34,417 nt of DNA from Bacteroidaceae bacterium (GTDB taxonomy: Bacteria; Bacteroidota; Bacteroidia; Bacteroidales; Bacteroidaceae). Numbering within the stretch: the first letter of the stretch is position 1; each line of letters begins with the position of its first letter. Under the pieces are notes generated by a model. That model saw only the letters and a program-made list of their open reading frames with translations. It did no database searches and was not told the DNA's origin. This document shows, piece by piece, positions 7,221-30,505 of this stretch. The DNA is taken from positions 1 to 34,417 of the forward strand of contig JAFUVM010000054.1 in assembly GCA_017483665.1 (NCBI GenBank), read 5' to 3'. Position numbers and translations under genes: made by a program.

Positions 7221-8459
7221 TTACCTTTCATCCGGATGTGCGAGATAGTAGGCGCGGAGGGCCGTGGAGGTCACTTTGATGAAGCCCTTGGCATCTTCCG
7301 AAGTCCAGGCCTTGGCGGTCTCGCCGTACTCGCCGAGTTTGTTCTTGACGAGGTCGTTGGGGCTGTCGACGCCGACGGTCTGGAAGCAATAGGGACGCAG
7401 TTCGAGCGTCACCTCGCCCGTCACGTTGCGCTGACTGCTGAGGAGCATGGCCTCGATGTCGGGCATGACGGGTTCCAGATACTGGCTCTCGTGCAGGAAC
7501 ATGCCGTACCAGTTCGCCACTTGCTCCTTCCAGTACTGCTGCCACTTGGAGAGCGTGAACTTCTCCAGATAGCGGTGAGCACCGATGATGAGCATGGGAG
7601 CTGCGGCTTCGAAGCCCACGCGACCCTTGATGCCGATGATGGTGTCGCCCACGTGGCAGTCGCGACCGATGGCGTAGCGTGCACCGATTTCCTCCACCTT
7701 CTGTATAGCTTTGATCTTATCCTCGAACTTCTCGCCGTTGACGCTGCATATCTCTCCCTTCTCGAAGCCGATGCGGAGCTGTTCCGGACCTTCCTCCGTG
7801 GGGTGCTTCAGGTAGGCACTCTCGGGCAGGCCCTGCTTCGAGTCGAGAATCTCGCCGCCGCAGATGCTGGTGCCCCACAGACCGACGTTGTAGCTGTACT
7901 TGAGCTTTGTGAAGTCGGCGAAGTAGCCGTTCTTGTTCAGGTAGTCCACTTCCTCCTGACGGGACAGGTTGCCGTCGCGGGTCAGCGTGATGATTTCCAC
8001 GCCGGGACACATCACAAGGAACGTCATGTCGAAGCGGATCTGGTCGTTGCCCGCACCGGTGGAGCCGTGGGCGATGGCCGTAGCGCCAATCTCCTTGGCG
8101 TAGCGTGCTATGGCGAGGGCTTGGAAAATACGCTCGCTGCTGACCGAAATGGGGTAGCAGTTATTGCGGAGAACGTTGCCGAAGACCATGTACTTCAGGG
8201 ATTTCTCGTAGTATTCCTGTGTCACGTCGAGGGTGACGTACTGCTTTGCGCCAAGCCTGTAGGCATTCTCCTCGTTGGCTCTGAGCTGTTCGGGACTGAA
8301 GCCGCCCGTGTTGGCGCAGGCAGCATATACTTCGTAACCTTTTTCCTTAGCCAAATACATCACGGTGTAGCTGGTATCGAGTCCGCCGCTGAAGGCGACA
8401 ACAACCTTGCGGACCCCCTCCTTCTCCCCCATAGGGGAGTGCTTTTCATTCTGGTTCAT
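7221..8459 (-). CDS. argG: Argininosuccinate synthase
   Basis: 412 aa, cytoplasmic. It joins citrulline and aspartate with ATP to make argininosuccinate. The PP-loop 'AFSGGLDTS' lies at 22-30, and 'GSTGAGNDQIRFD' matches the citrulline/aspartate site of the family. The first 16 residues (MNQNEKHSPMGEKEGV) precede the point at which homologues normally begin ('RKVVVAFSGG'). Their DNA (8411-8442) is a piece of the dispersed palindromic repeat, so the N-terminal extension looks repeat-derived. No closer in-frame ATG sits before the PP-loop except Met10. It is the third gene of the argR-GNAT-argG-argC transcript. Confidence 0.95.
   Translation of the reverse strand: MNQNEKHSPMGEKEGVRKVVVAFSGGLDTSYTVMYLAKEKGYEVYAACANTGGFSPEQLRANEENAYRLGAKQYVTLDVTQEYYEKSLKYMVFGNVLRNNCYPISVSSERIFQALAIARYAKEIGATAIAHGSTGAGNDQIRFDMTFLVMCPGVEIITLTRDGNLSRQEEVDYLNKNGYFADFTKLKYSYNVGLWGTSICGGEILDSKQGLPESAYLKHPTEEGPEQLRIGFEKGEICSVNGEKFEDKIKAIQKVEEIGARYAIGRDCHVGDTIIGIKGRVGFEAAAPMLIIGAHRYLEKFTLSKWQQYWKEQVANWYGMFLHESQYLEPVMPDIEAMLLSSQRNVTGEVTLELRPYCFQTVGVDSPNDLVKNKLGEYGETAKAWTSEDAKGFIKVTSTALRAYYLAHPDER
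8411..8442. repeat. Dispersed palindromic repeat, copy B (inside argG start)
   Basis: CCCCCTCCTTCTCCCCCATA followed by GGGGAG. It forms the codons for 'SPMGEKEGV' at the N-terminus of ArgG. It appears to be a partial copy of the family. Confidence 0.6.
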
Positions 8460-25621: not shown

Positions 25622-25750
25622 CTAAGAATAATCGAATTGGAGCAAGAAATCCTCTGAAGTAAGGAAAGGTATTTGGCAAAATTCGTAAAAGTCTTTTTTG
25701 TTGTTTGTCACAATCACATCGCAGCCTGCAGCCAAGGCGCATTGGTATTT
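25622..25750 (-). pseudogene. C-terminal remnant of a PIN-domain gene
   Basis: The minus strand reads 'YQCALAAGCDVIVTNNKKDF' followed by 'YEFCQIPFLTSEDFLLQFDYS' and a stop at 25622. This is the end of a PIN-domain toxin (the C(A/D)YIVTNNxxDF motif, then 'IPxLTxEDFL'). No N-terminal half is present: upstream the sequence runs straight into the duplicated 138-bp module at 25771. It is a truncated toxin gene, unrelated in strand to the intact PIN toxin. Confidence 0.75.
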
Positions 25751-25770
25751 CCCCGCTTTTACACAACTTT

Positions 25771-25908
25771 TTCTGCATTTTTCTTTGCTATTTCTTTGCT
25801 CGTATTAAATAAAACGCTATCTTTGCAGTAGAATTCCCGTGGTGTGGCCGTAGCGACGGTCTCGATCCTGCGCCGGGCAGAAGGGCAGCAGGCCCTGATG
25901 CGGATGGG
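25771..25908 (+). repeat. 138-bp duplicated promoter-leader module, copy 1
   Basis: It matches 26506-26643 over 138 bp without gaps, with nine substitutions. It contains a perfect promoter: TTTG (25795-25798), 19 bp, TATCTTTG (25818-25825). The transcribed part holds hairpins CCGT-AGCG-ACGG (25848-25859) and CCTGC..GCAGG (25867-25892), the latter with inner GCC/GGC. It drives the two small membrane-protein genes through a leader of about 135 nt. Confidence 0.9.
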
Positions 25909-25964
25909 GGTAAGCGTGATATAATATCGAGATGAAAACCCGGTGAGACAAAAACTGATAAATT

Positions 25965-26228
25965 ATGAAAAAAGAATTTGGGAAATGGTTTCTTGATTTA
26001 GCCAAGTACATACTGACAGCCGTTTTCCTCACCACCTATCTGACTGGCTTAGAAGAAAAGGCATTAGTTTGGTTTTCTGCCATAGCCTTTGTCTCTACAC
26101 TTCTTGCCGGTTACTTCCTCTTAAGGTCTGCAGACGAAGAAAACACAGCATCAACATCTGTTACAAGTGAGAAATCCGGTGAAACAAAAGAACAGAACAG
26201 AAAACATAATAAAAAAAACAAGAAATAG
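25965..26228 (+). CDS. Small membrane protein (DUF6722-like)
   Basis: 87 aa (MKKEFGKWFLDLAKYILTAV...). Two transmembrane helices at about 14-30 and 36-54 are joined by a short loop, with a polar, lysine-rich C-tail (EQNRKHNKKNKK). The N-terminal 'MKKEFGKW..DLAKYI' is typical of a small Bacteroidetes family that I recall as DUF6722; its function is unknown. A 35-aa single-helix protein starts 1 bp after its stop. The promoter and leader come from module copy 1. Confidence 0.75.
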   Translation: MKKEFGKWFLDLAKYILTAVFLTTYLTGLEEKALVWFSAIAFVSTLLAGYFLLRSADEENTASTSVTSEKSGETKEQNRKHNKKNKK

Positions 26229-26229
26229 T

Positions 26230-26337
26230 ATGGAAAGATATATATGGCTTTTTATGCTTGCCTTTGCGATAGTATTCGTCCTGACAGCATTGCATTTCGA
26301 TGACAAAAAGAAAAAACTTGCATCGTCGGATAAATGA
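26230..26337 (+). CDS. 35-aa single-helix membrane peptide
   Basis: MERYIWLFMLAFAIVFVLTA, then LHFDDKKKKLASSDK. One transmembrane helix (about 5-21) with a charged C-terminus. It begins 1 bp after the preceding stop codon, so the two are translated together, and a strong terminator lies 58 bp later. Too short for family assignment. The two proteins may form a small membrane complex (inference). Confidence 0.65.
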   Translation: MERYIWLFMLAFAIVFVLTALHFDDKKKKLASSDK

Positions 26338-26394
26338 TATCCATGAGGTAAGAATAATAGGTTTTATATAAATAATCAAGTTAGTATTCACAAA

Positions 26395-26446
26395 ATGTGC
26401 ATTGTGCCGCGATTATCATTGCGGCATGATGCACTTTCTTTTTATT
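26395..26446 (+). terminator. Rho-independent terminator of the small membrane-protein pair
   Basis: GTGCAT (26397-26402) and GTGCCGC (26404-26410) pair with GCGGCAT (26421-26427) and ATGCAC (26429-26434), with one internal mismatch. The T-rich TTTCTTTTTATTT follows. Confidence 0.88.
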
Positions 26447-26505
26447 TGTGTCGCATCGAACATAAAATGCGAAATTGATAGTCATTTCCTCTTATTAATA
26501 TTCTT

Positions 26506-26643
26506 TTCTGCATTTTCCTGTGCTATTTCTTTGCTCGTATTAGATAAAACGCTATCTTTGCAGTAGGATTCCCATGGTATGGCCGTAGCGACGGTCTCGA
26601 ACCCGCGCCGGGCAGAAGGGCAGCAGGCTCTGATGCGGATGGG
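26506..26643 (+). repeat. 138-bp duplicated promoter-leader module, copy 2
   Basis: About 93% identical to 25771-25908 and ungapped. The promoter is kept exactly: TTTG (26530-26533), 19 bp, TATCTTTG (26553-26560). The hairpins CCGT-AGCG-ACGG and the CC.GC/GC.GG stem are kept. It points toward the second BspA-like operon, whose first start codon is 440 nt past the predicted transcription start. Confidence 0.9.
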
Positions 26644-26914
26644 TTGGGTAGGTGGGATTCAAAACATAATAAAGGCGTTTACTTTGACGCTTTGTTCTTG
26701 ACATACCGAAACCTGAGAAATTTCAAATTACAGTCATAGGACATTGCAACGGTAGATGCCCATGGGTATGTATATATACATGCTCCTCTTCGTCATTGTA
26801 GGGGTATGTTGTACATATCGGCGTGGGGTCTAAGGGTTGCTCGTTCTTGACTGTAGGGCAATCTCAGGGCCTCGGTATGTGGAACGGGCAACAGCCAGTC
26901 TCCACGTTTTTTAT
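26567..26914 (+). ncRNA. Long structured leader or stand-alone small RNA
   Basis: About 350 nt without an open frame, from the copy-2 promoter to a terminator-like hairpin. Visible pairings include ATGTATATATACAT, TATGT-TGT-ACATA, GGTTGC with GCAATC across GTTCTTGACTG, and the final stem. GTTCTTGAC occurs twice, 150 bp apart. It could be an attenuating 5' leader of the surface-protein operon or an independent RNA. No known riboswitch signature was recognised. Confidence 0.45.
26879..26914 (+). terminator. Terminator-like hairpin inside the operon leader
   Basis: GTGGA (26879-26883) pairs with TCCAC (26901-26905), with inner GGC/GCC around AACA, then six T's (26907-26912). It lies about 95 bp before the surface-protein start, so it is either the end of a small RNA or an attenuator. 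Confidence 0.6.
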
Positions 26915-26968
26915 ATCCGTGCATAGCTTTCGCTGGTTTGTGTAGCAGGGTACTCGCCTCACGCGCGT

Positions 26969-26984
26969 ACATTATATTATATGT
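26969..26984 (+). promoter_or_regulatory. AT-rich leader motif, copy 3
   Basis: ACATTATATTATATGT, 23 bp before the ATG of the second BspA-like gene. Same word and orientation as copies 1, 2 and 4. Confidence 0.4.
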
Positions 26985-27007
26985 TCAACCTAAATACACA
27001 AACCAAA

Positions 27008-30000
27008 ATGAAAAAACTTACTTCTTTAGTTCTTGTCTTCCTGACAAGCTTGTTCTCGCTCACATCGTGGGCGGCAGAGCGCGTGGCACCGACCTTCCCA
27101 GAGCCACAGACGTTGGAAAGCGGGAAGACGTATTATCTGTATAATGTGGGGAGTGGTCAGTTTTTATACAGGGACAACTCTATGGTACGAGCTTCAAAAA
27201 CGTCAGGAACAGGTATCATTATTACAGAAACAGGTGACGGCACTTATACCATGCAATTTTGCGATAACAACAGCTATATTTGGACAAGTTCTAGTGACCT
27301 GAATACACAAAGTGGAGTTGACTCTGATGTTTACTTTAGGTTTAATAAAGTAGATGGTGGCTATACCATTCAGAGGAATAAAAATTATAATGAAACACAT
27401 TTTGTCGCTAACAATAGCAGTTACTCTGTCTATGCAAACCAAACAGACGGTAACATTGTATGGCAGTTGTTAGATGCAGCTGAAGGATCTTATTTTATAG
27501 CCAAGAAAGCCCTCTACGATGCCTTGGAGAGTGCCGAGGTCAACTATGCCTGGGCTATTGCCGATTTTGAAGCTATCTATGAGAATGAGGCCAGCACTAT
27601 CGTAGAACTCAACGCTGCTACAACAGCCCTTCAGAACTCGTTCGGCATGTCCACTGGCTATCAGGCTCCCTGGTGGAACGAACGTCCCATCTTATTCTCT
27701 ACGTCCGACGGCAGCTTCGGACAAAATGATTATTATACTTGGGCCTTGCCAAACAATAGCTATACCAGCGGAACATATTTTGAAAGATATTTAGGTAATT
27801 CCGGACAAACAAGTTCCATTAGTGCTACAGTCTTGATAGAAGAGCCATCTACGCTGATATATTCTCTTTCCGATAATCCCCCATCATTGGACGTCTATGT
27901 GGATGGAGAATTAGTACGTCGGTTAGGAGATGAACAATGTAATCATGAACCATACACGGATAATAATGCATATACCCGATTCTTTGAAGAATTGGAGCCT
28001 GGCTTGCATACCATAACATGGACTCTCAGTGCTCTTGCATGGAAAGGATATGCCAGTGTGTATTTACGAAATGTCGGCGTAATGTCTAAGCAGCAGATAA
28101 TTGTAAACCTCTTAGAGCCAGGTAGCTTAGGTACTGAGGTGCTGTACAACACAGATCACATCAAGAATGTACGCCGTCTGAAGGTGAAGGGAGCCATGAA
28201 TAGTGACGACTGGGCAAAGATAAAGATGATGTCAACGCTGCTTGAGCTTGATTTGAGTGAAGCACAGTTTGCGGAAATACCAACTCAACAATTTCGCTTA
28301 TATGGTAAGGATACCACAATGGTATTCCTGCACAAGGTCGTTTTGCCTGAAGGCTTGACAAAAATAAATAGCGAGGCTTTCTATAATTCTTTCGTAGAAG
28401 AGGTCAATTTCCCATCGACTCTACAAAATATAGGATACCGAGCTTTCTGCATGAGCCATATACTTGAAGCCATTTTGCCTGATAACCTAACAGAAATGGG
28501 AGAAGATGTATTTGAAGATGCCTACTGGCTAAAGAAGGCTCACTTTGGTAAGAACCTAATTACAATCCCAAGAGATGCATTCTATTACTGTTACTACCTG
28601 AGTGATGTTATCCTGCCGGAAAAACTGAGAACTGTGGATACCTACGCTTTCAAAGAGTGTCATAGCCTTCAAACTAGTCTGCCTGAAGGTTTGGAGACTG
28701 TGGGTTCACGAGCTTTTGAAGGTTGTTGGAATTTCAATCCTCGTTTGCCAGAGGGATTGACGACCATTCGCAATGCAGCATTTAATACATGTAACGCCCT
28801 TGATTCACTTTTCGTTCCTTCCAGTGTAACAACTATCGAGGAATATGCCTTCTGCAATTGCCAGAATCTTAAGTATGCTGAGCTGAGCGTATCGCAGTAT
28901 ACGACTCCATATGCAATTTTTGATAATACGCCTCAACTTGAGGTGTTAAAGCTGAACTCAGCAACTGTGGTTGATCCAATCATAAGTGGCAGTACCTATC
29001 CTCATAGGAACATCTCTCAGTTAACATTGAAGGTTCCCCATTACCTTGTGAATAGCTACAAACTGCACAGCTACTGGTACAACGCCAAGGCCATAGAACC
29101 TTTCGACTACAGCAGCATTGACTACATTCCAATTCACGGACAACTGACACTGAATCATGAGCGTTTTGGCGGACAGCCAAGTGTTGATGTTCATAACAAA
29201 AATTCTTATTTGAAAGTCAATGGCGATGCTGCACAAGCATTTGAAGATTTCAGAGTTTGGCGTGACTTTAACGACGAATGGGGATACGGAATGATGTTAA
29301 GTAACTGTCAAAACCTAAGTATAAACGGTGATGCCTATGTGATGTACAAGACACAAGCCAATCGCTGGAATTTCATCTCTTTGCCTTTCGACCTTGACAT
29401 TTCGCGCATTGCTCACAACCAGGAAGGCGTACAGTTTGCCATCCGTTATTACGATGGTGAGGGAAGGGCTGCCAATGGCATGTCCGGCAACTGGAAGAAT
29501 GTGGACCGCACAGGCATTATTCCCGCCGGCACAGGTTTCATCCTGCAATCAAACAAGGATTGCTGGACATCCCTTTATGCCGTCAACAACGAAACAAAGC
29601 AGAACATAGTTTCATGCAGGGAGTTCAATAAGACGCTTGCCGTGAATGCCAGCGAGACAGCAAGCAACAAGGGCTGGAACCTGGTGGGCAATCCCTATCA
29701 ATGCTTCTACAACAATCATGCGCTGAACTTCACGGCTCCCATCACTATCTGGAACCCCGATAGAAAAACCTACACAGCCTACTCGCTGACAGATGACGAC
29801 TATGCCATCCGTCCCAATGAGGCCTTCTTCGTGCAGTGCCCCAACGAGGAGTATAACACCATCGGCTTCCCCTTGCAGGGCCGTCAGCTGACAAGCGTCA
29901 TCGAAAGCCAGAACGCAGTGAAGGAATGGGCTCCGCAGGCAAAGACACGCCAGGTGGTGAACCTCACTGTTGCCAGTGGCGAGATGGAGGACATGACCCG

Positions 30001-30505
30001 CGTGGTGCTGAACGAGGAGGCAAGTCTGGCGTATGAGACAGCGTGCGATGCCAGCAAGTTCATGAGCATGGACGGCAGTGTGCCGCAGATATACACCTTG
30101 GACGCAGAGGGTACACAGTATGCCATCAACGAGCGTCCCTTCGCAGAAGGCACAGTTGCCCTTGGCTTCTATACGGGTCAGGACGGCGACTACACCATCT
30201 CCACCAGTCGCTGCGATGCCGAGAAGGTGTTCATCACGGACAACCTGACGGGCACGACGACCGACATCACCGACGGCGCATACACCTTCTCTGCCAAGGC
30301 AGGCACAGACAACACGCGCTTCACCCTGAGCTTCGTTTCCAACGACCCGACTGCTGTCAGGGAAGTAGAAAAGGATGCCATCATGGGCAAGGCTGATATC
30401 TACAGCGTGGACGGCAAATTCCTTGGCAACGATGCCAGTCGCCTTGAAGCTGGCATCTATGTTGTTCGCCAGGGAAAGAAGGCAAGCAAGGTCATTGTGC
30501 GCTAA
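27008..30505 (+). CDS. BspA-like LRR surface protein, type IX secretion cargo
   Basis: 1165 aa from the ATG at 27008 (MKKLTSLVLVFLTSLFSLTSWA signal peptide). An ATG 27 bp earlier is in frame but adds a non-signal stretch. The N-terminal part (about 30-375) contains an adhesin-like beta domain with 'YYLYNVGSGQFLYRDNS'. BspA-type LRR_5 repeats run from about 385 to 640 ('AFKECHSLQTSLPEGLETVGSRAFEGC'). A beta-rich C-terminal half follows ('NRWNFISLPFDLDIS', 'KGWNLVGNPYQC'), then the sorting tail 'ADIYSVDGKFLGN...LEAGIYVVRQGKKASKVIVR'. DNA for the N-terminal and LRR part is visibly AT-rich (one counted 60-bp line near 27361 is 30% GC). The end is GC-rich (60% near 30181), so the gene looks mosaic. 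First gene of a four-gene operon. Surface binding is inferred. Confidence 0.85.
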   Translation: MKKLTSLVLVFLTSLFSLTSWAAERVAPTFPEPQTLESGKTYYLYNVGSGQFLYRDNSMVRASKTSGTGIIITETGDGTYTMQFCDNNSYIWTSSSDLNTQSGVDSDVYFRFNKVDGGYTIQRNKNYNETHFVANNSSYSVYANQTDGNIVWQLLDAAEGSYFIAKKALYDALESAEVNYAWAIADFEAIYENEASTIVELNAATTALQNSFGMSTGYQAPWWNERPILFSTSDGSFGQNDYYTWALPNNSYTSGTYFERYLGNSGQTSSISATVLIEEPSTLIYSLSDNPPSLDVYVDGELVRRLGDEQCNHEPYTDNNAYTRFFEELEPGLHTITWTLSALAWKGYASVYLRNVGVMSKQQIIVNLLEPGSLGTEVLYNTDHIKNVRRLKVKGAMNSDDWAKIKMMSTLLELDLSEAQFAEIPTQQFRLYGKDTTMVFLHKVVLPEGLTKINSEAFYNSFVEEVNFPSTLQNIGYRAFCMSHILEAILPDNLTEMGEDVFEDAYWLKKAHFGKNLITIPRDAFYYCYYLSDVILPEKLRTVDTYAFKECHSLQTSLPEGLETVGSRAFEGCWNFNPRLPEGLTTIRNAAFNTCNALDSLFVPSSVTTIEEYAFCNCQNLKYAELSVSQYTTPYAIFDNTPQLEVLKLNSATVVDPIISGSTYPHRNISQLTLKVPHYLVNSYKLHSYWYNAKAIEPFDYSSIDYIPIHGQLTLNHERFGGQPSVDVHNKNSYLKVNGDAAQAFEDFRVWRDFNDEWGYGMMLSNCQNLSINGDAYVMYKTQANRWNFISLPFDLDISRIAHNQEGVQFAIRYYDGEGRAANGMSGNWKNVDRTGIIPAGTGFILQSNKDCWTSLYAVNNETKQNIVSCREFNKTLAVNASETASNKGWNLVGNPYQCFYNNHALNFTAPITIWNPDRKTYTAYSLTDDDYAIRPNEAFFVQCPNEEYNTIGFPLQGRQLTSVIESQNAVKEWAPQAKTRQVVNLTVASGEMEDMTRVVLNEEASLAYETACDASKFMSMDGSVPQIYTLDAEGTQYAINERPFAEGTVALGFYTGQDGDYTISTSRCDAEKVFITDNLTGTTTDITDGAYTFSAKAGTDNTRFTLSFVSNDPTAVREVEKDAIMGKADIYSVDGKFLGNDASRLEAGIYVVRQGKKASKVIVR

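Follow-up and report, generated by a model that had tools for sequence, protein, structure and literature searches.

A widespread structured leader RNA of Bacteroidota precedes a BspA-type surface-protein gene and carries competing pairings

Regulatory RNA classes described so far in Bacteroidota of the gut and rumen are, to our knowledge, few. On a 34,417-nt contig of a Bacteroidaceae bacterium (JAFUVM010000054.1; this whole stretch is the window below), about 350 nt with no reading frame lie between a promoter and a surface-protein gene. The original prediction, made from the letters alone, took them for either a stand-alone RNA or a long attenuator. Which of the two is it, and does it occur elsewhere? 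The stretch 26566-26914 proves to be a copy of a structured leader RNA, laid out as follows.

26504-26643, + strand: promoter and 5' module, with a 94% copy at 25769-25908
26553-26560, + strand: promoter -7 box TATCTTTG of the TAnnTTTG type, from sequence reading; the transcript would start near 26566
26669-26912, + strand: conserved leader core up to the U-run, from aligned related loci and a covariance model
26907-26912, + strand: U-run TTTTTT; at least 5 consecutive T stand here in 118/136 elements
27008-30505, + strand: downstream gene for a BspA-type leucine-rich-repeat protein (Pfam LRR_5, E 1.3e-43), with a signal-peptide-like start by eye

The sequence features first noticed here hold up. 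A -7 box is readable in the promoter copy said to precede the leader, and TAnnTTTG is given as the promoter -7 consensus in PMC9723704. Across the six frames of 26567-27007 the longest stop-free stretches reach only 44 to 63 codons, with no coding potential seen, and no ORF of at least 80 aa is listed between 26228 and 26981. The repeated segment is GTTCTTGAC, found at 26694 and at 26843, with a third occurrence at 7341, for a chance expectation of 0.27 in the window. The RNA has a predicted folding energy of -139.2 kcal/mol, against -107.2 +- 5.3 for dinucleotide shuffles (z -6.0, 0/100 as good), and the predicted rod-like fold is very stable in three elements (z -5.8 to -7.4). The stem before the six T's is GTGGA/TCCAC, and 95 nt separate the U-run from the ATG at 27008, with a further ATG in the same frame at 26981. 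The 140-nt direct repeat stands apart: its copy at 25769-25908 lacks the RNA core and precedes an 87-aa DUF6722 protein, as if the promoter module had been duplicated alone. A strong terminator-like stem at 26397-26434 (17 pairs, then a T-rich tail) follows the small-protein genes and separates them from the second leader.

No covariance model of Rfam 15 matches the window at gathering score, in agreement with the earlier failure to recognize a riboswitch, 6S, tmRNA or RNase P signature; at E up to 5, the region 25700-27020 gives one chance-level human lncRNA match, outside the element. Across 58 further loci searched at gathering score, no family lies over any element, the four matches being two tRNAs, a DUF805 RNA beside the element of locus L245 and a distant DUF805b in L118. 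In E-value mode, three elements returned chance-level matches or none. No title or abstract opening returned by searches of the open-access full-text literature describes the leader RNA, although it could correspond to an unnamed one of the thousands of candidates in PMC8040213. Bacteroidales-1 (RF01693), Bacteroides-1 (RF01694) and Flavo-1 (RF01705), listed in PMC2864571, are likewise structured RNA motifs of Bacteroidetes, but have no gathering-score match in the window or the 58 other loci. The kind of RNA is known and the variant looks new: this leader is widespread in Bacteroidota and has no match among the Rfam 15 families.

BLASTN against the window genome and 60 relatives gave core matches for many members of the genus, and for a single genome (G054) from a different family. 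We did not use the count of 33/61 genomes at E<=0.1, many of these matches being short and confined to query positions 425-458 near the gene start. The alignment of related loci spans the entire RNA, with a common architecture and diverged sequence, so that conservation extends beyond the promoter module. An exact pattern with 21 fixed bases, run on a genome collection, returned at least 119 stretches. A profile built from the window and G-genome loci only matched 119/119 of the listed stretches with a lowest score of 66 bits, which became 84.7 after one more round that included them. Among the matches listed with titles, 78/80 name Bacteroidales taxa, counting two Candidatus genera that we take to belong there; pattern matches come from Prevotella, Segatella, Phocaeicola, Paraprevotella, Parabacteroides and other Bacteroidales records. 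Named isolates with the element include Segatella copri iAQ1173 (L083), Parabacteroides distasonis NM39_I3 (L140) and Xylanibacter caecicola PCHR (L146, L153). The two remaining titles, of the short contigs L086 and L139, read Firmicutes and Eubacteriales, and we take these labels for binning errors. Titled contigs and G loci in some cases come from the same assembly, and identical element ends were counted once in the context analysis below. Plasmids gave no match to the element, phages one (an unannotated metagenomic record, 29% of the query) and viral contigs one (L195).

Two covariance models extended the search: R1, built from the long form seen in the window, and R2, built from a shorter form of about 165 nt that R1 also recovered; R2 also matches the window, at E 5e-5. 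R1 matches 57/295 sampled genomes of the order and 3/296 of a phylum sample, and R2 matches 109/295 and 34/296, the window genome being included in each count. Of the 34, 27 are labelled as the same class, 5 as the same phylum and 2 as Bacteroidaceae, and 32 lie outside the order. With at most 7 or 8 candidates scored per genome, copy numbers in these samples are lower bounds, and the E-values of both models are rough. When 150 candidates were scored in the window genome, R1 gave nine matches at E<=1.3e-9 and a weak one (C118); R2 matches C118 at 8.6e-11 and adds C108 at 5.4e-5, which suggests about ten copies, highly diverged from one another. L258 (G000:C92) and L257 (C122) represent a further sequence subtype, with two copies close together on C92, one of which has P7 (see below) as UGUCUAUCCUG/CAGGAUAGACA.

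Comparison of the long-form elements defined the following pairings. Percentages are paired cells, and two-sided pairs are those changed on both sides somewhere among 48 of the 136 core-spanning elements, namely the window copy and a set selected mainly because their variable arm is short.

26602-26610, + strand: P1 5' strand CCCGCGCCG, pairs with 26819-26827
26674-26682, + strand: P2 5' strand GGCGUUUAC, pairs with 26752-26760 GUAGAUGCC; 93.6% paired, 4/9 pairs two-sided
26674-26682 with 26687-26692, + strand: local hairpin, alternative to P2, from RNAalifold
26689-26702, + strand: P3 5' strand, holding the first GTTCTTGAC (26694-26702), pairs with 26733-26747; 7-pair part 81% paired, 6/7 pairs two-sided, 2-pair end 100%
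26701-26708 / 26873-26880, + strand: PK2 ACAUACCG/CGGUAUGU; 96.6% paired, 8/8 pairs two-sided
26708-26724, + strand: P4 hairpin with the PK1 5' strand in its loop; 85.3% paired
26712-26717 / 26863-26868, + strand: PK1 CCUGAG/CUCAGG; 99.3% paired, 5/6 pairs two-sided
26729-26735 / 26849-26855, + strand: PK3 UACAGUC/GACUGUA; weak, 48.9% paired in the alignment register, some two-sided change in 7/7 pairs
26746-26750 / 26836-26840, + strand: Palt GCAAC/GUUGC, predicted by RNAalifold; 100% paired, nearly invariant, 1/5 pairs with two-sided change, in one sequence
26765-26819, + strand: P5, variable-length arm closed by GGUAUGU/ACAUAUC; 86-90% paired
26819-26827, + strand: CGGCGUGGG, P1 3' strand, whose GUGGG part also pairs with 26759-26764 and the 3' CCAC
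26836-26846 / 26882-26892, + strand: P7 GUUGCUCGUUC/GAACGGGCAAC; 98.1% paired, 4/11 pairs two-sided
26746-26750 (Palt) and 26858-26863 (P6), + strand: alternative partners of the P7 5' strand; P6 96.8% paired, 1/6 two-sided
26843-26851, + strand: second GTTCTTGAC, competes with the first for 26733-26742
26879-26883 / 26901-26905, + strand: terminator-like stem GUGGA/UCCAC; 89.1% paired, 3/5 pairs two-sided

Mutual information over 142 elements placed nine of the ten strongest column pairs in PK1 or PK2, at up to 48 standard deviations. In the 48 elements, 86.4% of the cells of a 54-pair pseudoknotted model are paired, whereas shuffles reach 75.7 +- 0.4% and slid versions 37-46%. Cells changed on both sides number 353, against 137.5 +- 10.6 in shuffles; 36/54 pairs show such change somewhere. 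A strand matching P1 (score >=7) stands within 130 nt upstream in 82/135 elements, against 3.3% of shuffles; P1 falls below that score in the other 53 over the same distance. A consensus scan for terminators did not list the GUGGA/UCCAC stem, whose loop is longer than the scan permits; by sequence, the leader has what an intrinsic terminator or attenuator calls for, a stem and then a U-run upstream of a gene. At the level of sequence comparison, these data establish a fold with P2, P3, P5, P7, PK1, PK2 and the terminator-like stem with its U-run. Two candidates fared less well. A local hairpin with a kissing loop at 26674-26693 was replaced by P2, whose strands are complementary over nine positions, and returns below within an alternative fold. 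The closing helix P0 (A-run/U-run) scored 21.4 against 20.1 +- 0.37 with swapped partners, and was kept as weak and tentative.

In the short form, a local hairpin (P1', CACGCC-loop-GGCGUGGG) replaces P1 and P5, and a 3' CCCACGC pairs with the same GGCGUGGG beside the U-run (P8). Among 16 of 20 fetched short elements, PK2 is 97% paired, PK1 93%, P1' 98%, P8 88.5% and P7 72%, while P2 with the end of P3 reaches 72%, the rest of P3 62% and PK3 40%. The local terminator stem is not kept, and the U-run comes after P8. In L295 (GCGTCC/GGACGC/GCGTCC) and L247 (CACGGA/TCCGTG/CACGGA) all three competing strands change together, by eye, which gives the best hint that P1' and P8 are true alternatives. 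Outside the order, runs of at least 6 pairs occur for PK1 in 16/18 and for PK2 in 14/18 scored R2 loci (19 loci, of which L289 was not scorable by the rule; L293 from the window genome, in the same batch, was also not scored). With their own rather than swapped partners, 38 of 40 R2 loci score 7.25 against 5.07 +- 0.21 for PK1 and 7.26 against 4.57 +- 0.11 for PK2. Chance is unlikely to account for the R2 matches outside the order, since PK1 and PK2 recur there and are not among the pairs of model R2.

The RNA stands in a fixed relation to the gene that follows. Of 148 distinct elements, 123 are followed by a co-directional ORF and 9 by one in the opposite direction, with no ORF called after 16 (binomial p 1e-26); the upstream ORF is co-directional in 74, opposite in 56 and not called in 18 (p 0.14). 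The start of the co-directional ORF lies within 150 nt of the element end in 105/123 cases, at a median of 70 nt. A further R2 set has the next ORF co-directional in 37/40, and a TAnnTTTG box lies 40-200 nt upstream of the core in 123/135 long-form elements, against 9.3% of shuffles. This position, with the compensatory base changes, the recurrence of the same RNA before many genes and the lack of an Rfam match, upholds the structured-leader branch of the original prediction, and its uncertain impression of similar leaders before other Prevotella-type surface genes was sound to the extent that the same RNA is found ahead of many other genes.

What those genes encode is diverse. We scanned 105 of 114 usable downstream ORFs, leaving out very long or doubtful ones (L100, L177, L171, L188, L066, L117, L069, L130, L058). 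Pfam matches include LRR_5 (6), NusG (5), OMP_b-brl_2 (4), PEGA, LytTR and Por_Secre_tail (3 each) and many families once, including AbiH; PADLOC gave single PLD/SNF2-helicase and DISARM-like matches, possibly to the same protein. By a crude, home-made signal-peptide rule applied to ORFs of at least 100 aa, with ORFs and signal peptides called mechanically, 59/103 first downstream ORFs are predicted to be secreted or lipidated, against 19/68 upstream ORFs (p 1.7e-4). This bias may be partly regional, because second downstream ORFs look secreted even more often (62/91). By eye, the other copies in the window genome precede secreted proteins, a LytTR regulator and a tubulin-like gene cluster, and SusC-like receptors are among the downstream genes of the R2 set; we saw no shared metabolic theme among downstream genes. 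Small HTH-like proteins (by eye, 68-81 aa, similar N-termini) lie directly downstream in L140, L113, L189, L080, L155 and L095, and similar small proteins of about 95 aa directly follow the R2 matches L279 and L284 outside the order.

Part of the leaders carry a second hairpin with a YYGGGARUC loop between the U-run and the start codon. The motif has a likelihood gain of 245 (best of 14 starts), against 45 for letter-shuffled sequence (best of 8), and pairing the flanking stem with its own partner gives a score of 13.1, compared with 11.1 +- 0.3 when partners are swapped. The strict pattern occurs in 66/157 loci, with the window copy not among them, and is possibly a regulatory motif of its own. 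The hairpin lies 25-75 nt after the core in L076 (7370-7400), L166, L170, L092 and other loci. At L245, an Rfam DUF805 RNA (positions 1971-2039, - strand) sits directly 3' of a short-form element, a case of tandem regulatory RNAs. DUF805 and DUF805b (RF03081, RF02914) are likewise of Rfam type cis-regulatory; their models span 68 and 35 positions, and they form a separate neighbouring element that leaves the core unmatched. The second hairpin in part of the loci and the DUF805 RNA of L245 point to a composite leader on the mRNA.

Several strands of the fold can pair in more than one way. GUUGC (26836-26840) can pair with the upstream GCAAC, with GCAAU in P6 or with GCAAC in P7; GGCGUGGG with the P1 5' strand, with GCCCAUG or with the 3' CCAC; and GTCATAGGAC with either GTTCTTGAC. 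RNAalifold, which cannot draw pseudoknots, predicts a rod in which PK1, PK2, GCAAC/GUUGC and GCCC/GGGC are formed and the local hairpin replaces P2/P3. We call this rod state B, and state A the fold with P1, P2, P3 and P7. Covariation calls for P2, P3 and P7 as well, and these are incompatible with parts of the rod. The predicted ground state is not A, since GUUGC pairs upstream in 125/131 single-sequence minimum-energy folds (P6 in 4, P7 in 2). For state B, pairs specific to it are mostly invariant or changed on one side only: 15 are two-sided, against 14.0 +- 1.0 in shuffles (142/500 as high). Its two-sided cells and covariation score exceed all 500 shuffles, partly through PK3. The competing complementarity is conserved for the key strands.

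Position and covariation together describe a conserved structured RNA in an mRNA 5' leader, as expected of a riboswitch. That key strands have several conserved alternative partners suggests a riboswitch-like transcription attenuator, and selection for two folds in a single leader that carries a U-run is what an attenuator would lead one to expect; counting against it, 18/136 elements lack 5 consecutive T. We infer switching, termination and a signal from the pairings, the position and the U-run. The mRNA for the BspA-type surface protein would begin with the leader, read from the leader's own promoter. In state A, P1, P2, P3 and P7 would form, with the loops of P3 and P7 joined by PK1-PK3. 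In state B the same strands would re-pair into the rod, where the local hairpin takes the place of P2/P3, and GCAAC/GUUGC together with GCCCA/UGGGC that of P7/P1. The two states would occupy the terminator-forming strands differently, and a cellular signal or binding protein that stabilizes one of them would decide whether polymerase stops near 26914 or reads through. We consider it probable, on balance, that the element is a cis-acting leader of the BspA-type mRNA with its own promoter, a member of a phylum-wide family and a bistable, riboswitch-like or protein-responsive attenuator.

Other readings have to be weighed against this one. A stand-alone small RNA of 350 nt, acting in trans or on a protein, with the downstream gene read otherwise or by read-through, would account for the promoter box and U-run, the self-contained fold and the several copies per genome. 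We think it unlikely: the next gene is co-directional in 123/132 called cases while upstream orientation is near random, and 66/157 loci have the second conserved hairpin between U-run and start codon. A cis leader is favoured over a stand-alone RNA because of that hairpin and of the co-directional gene at a median of 70 nt. Less probable still is a static role, in which the rod protects the 5' end of the mRNA or positions the ribosome with no switching; the stability of the predicted rod fits it, as does the hairpin that some loci conserve close to the start codon, but a static element needs neither conserved alternative partners nor a conserved U-run. Mobile inverted-repeat DNA of the MITE type, or a recombination site, would explain the many copies and the near-palindromic character (12/53 R2 matches in 40 loci are weaker matches on the opposite strand). 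We hold it to be very improbable given the near-fixed orientation to promoter box and gene, the divergence of the copies in the window genome (the best BLASTN alignment with the core of a paralogue reaches 84% over 32 bases) and the many G-U pairs, for instance 22/48 at one P7 pair.

The leader might instead be the target of a specialized NusG paralogue of the UpxY type or another antitermination protein. In UpxY and LoaP antitermination systems a leader RNA acts on the transcription of surface operons, which resembles the present RNA in its placement at surface operons and candidate role in transcription, and 5/105 downstream proteins match the UpxY antiterminator model. Presence of that model does not discriminate, with matches at E<=1e-10 in 278/295 genomes of the order. 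Among 18 genomes with eight R2 matches (the number scored), nine (G048, G055, G077, G178, G187, G210, G221, G252, G310) have a single match, at E 7e-16 to 8e-19, which we take for the housekeeping NusG; the other nine have stronger matches. The window genome, 78% complete, also has one match (E 6.9e-16), and no cognate UpxY was found in it. A dedicated UpxY effector is unlikely where the RNA is abundant beside only one weak NusG-like match, as in the window genome and these nine, and we rate this reading as improbable, slightly ahead of the static role; NusG or NusA may nonetheless have a general part in it.

Riboswitches with loop-loop contacts and terminator platforms, such as the cobalamin class, are likewise large pseudoknotted RNAs between promoter and gene, with competing helices and a U-run before the start codon, whereas the leader described here has no Rfam riboswitch match and precedes diverse targets rather than one metabolic pathway. 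The targets being diverse and rich in envelope proteins, a global physiological or envelope signal seems likelier to us than a pathway metabolite.

The covariation model supplies precise mutations, which break and restore PK1, PK2 and P7. More tentatively, and with somewhat less than even confidence, we propose that these RNAs make up a phylum-wide class of bistable leaders of 165-350 nt, up to about ten per genome, that share one signal and act as a global switch of the surface and secreted proteome. If so, read-through into BspA adhesins, lipoproteins, SusC-like receptors, proteases, regulators and some defence-like genes would be set at once. Occurring many times in a genome ahead of adhesins, lipoproteins and regulators, such a class would open common control of surface genes to direct test.
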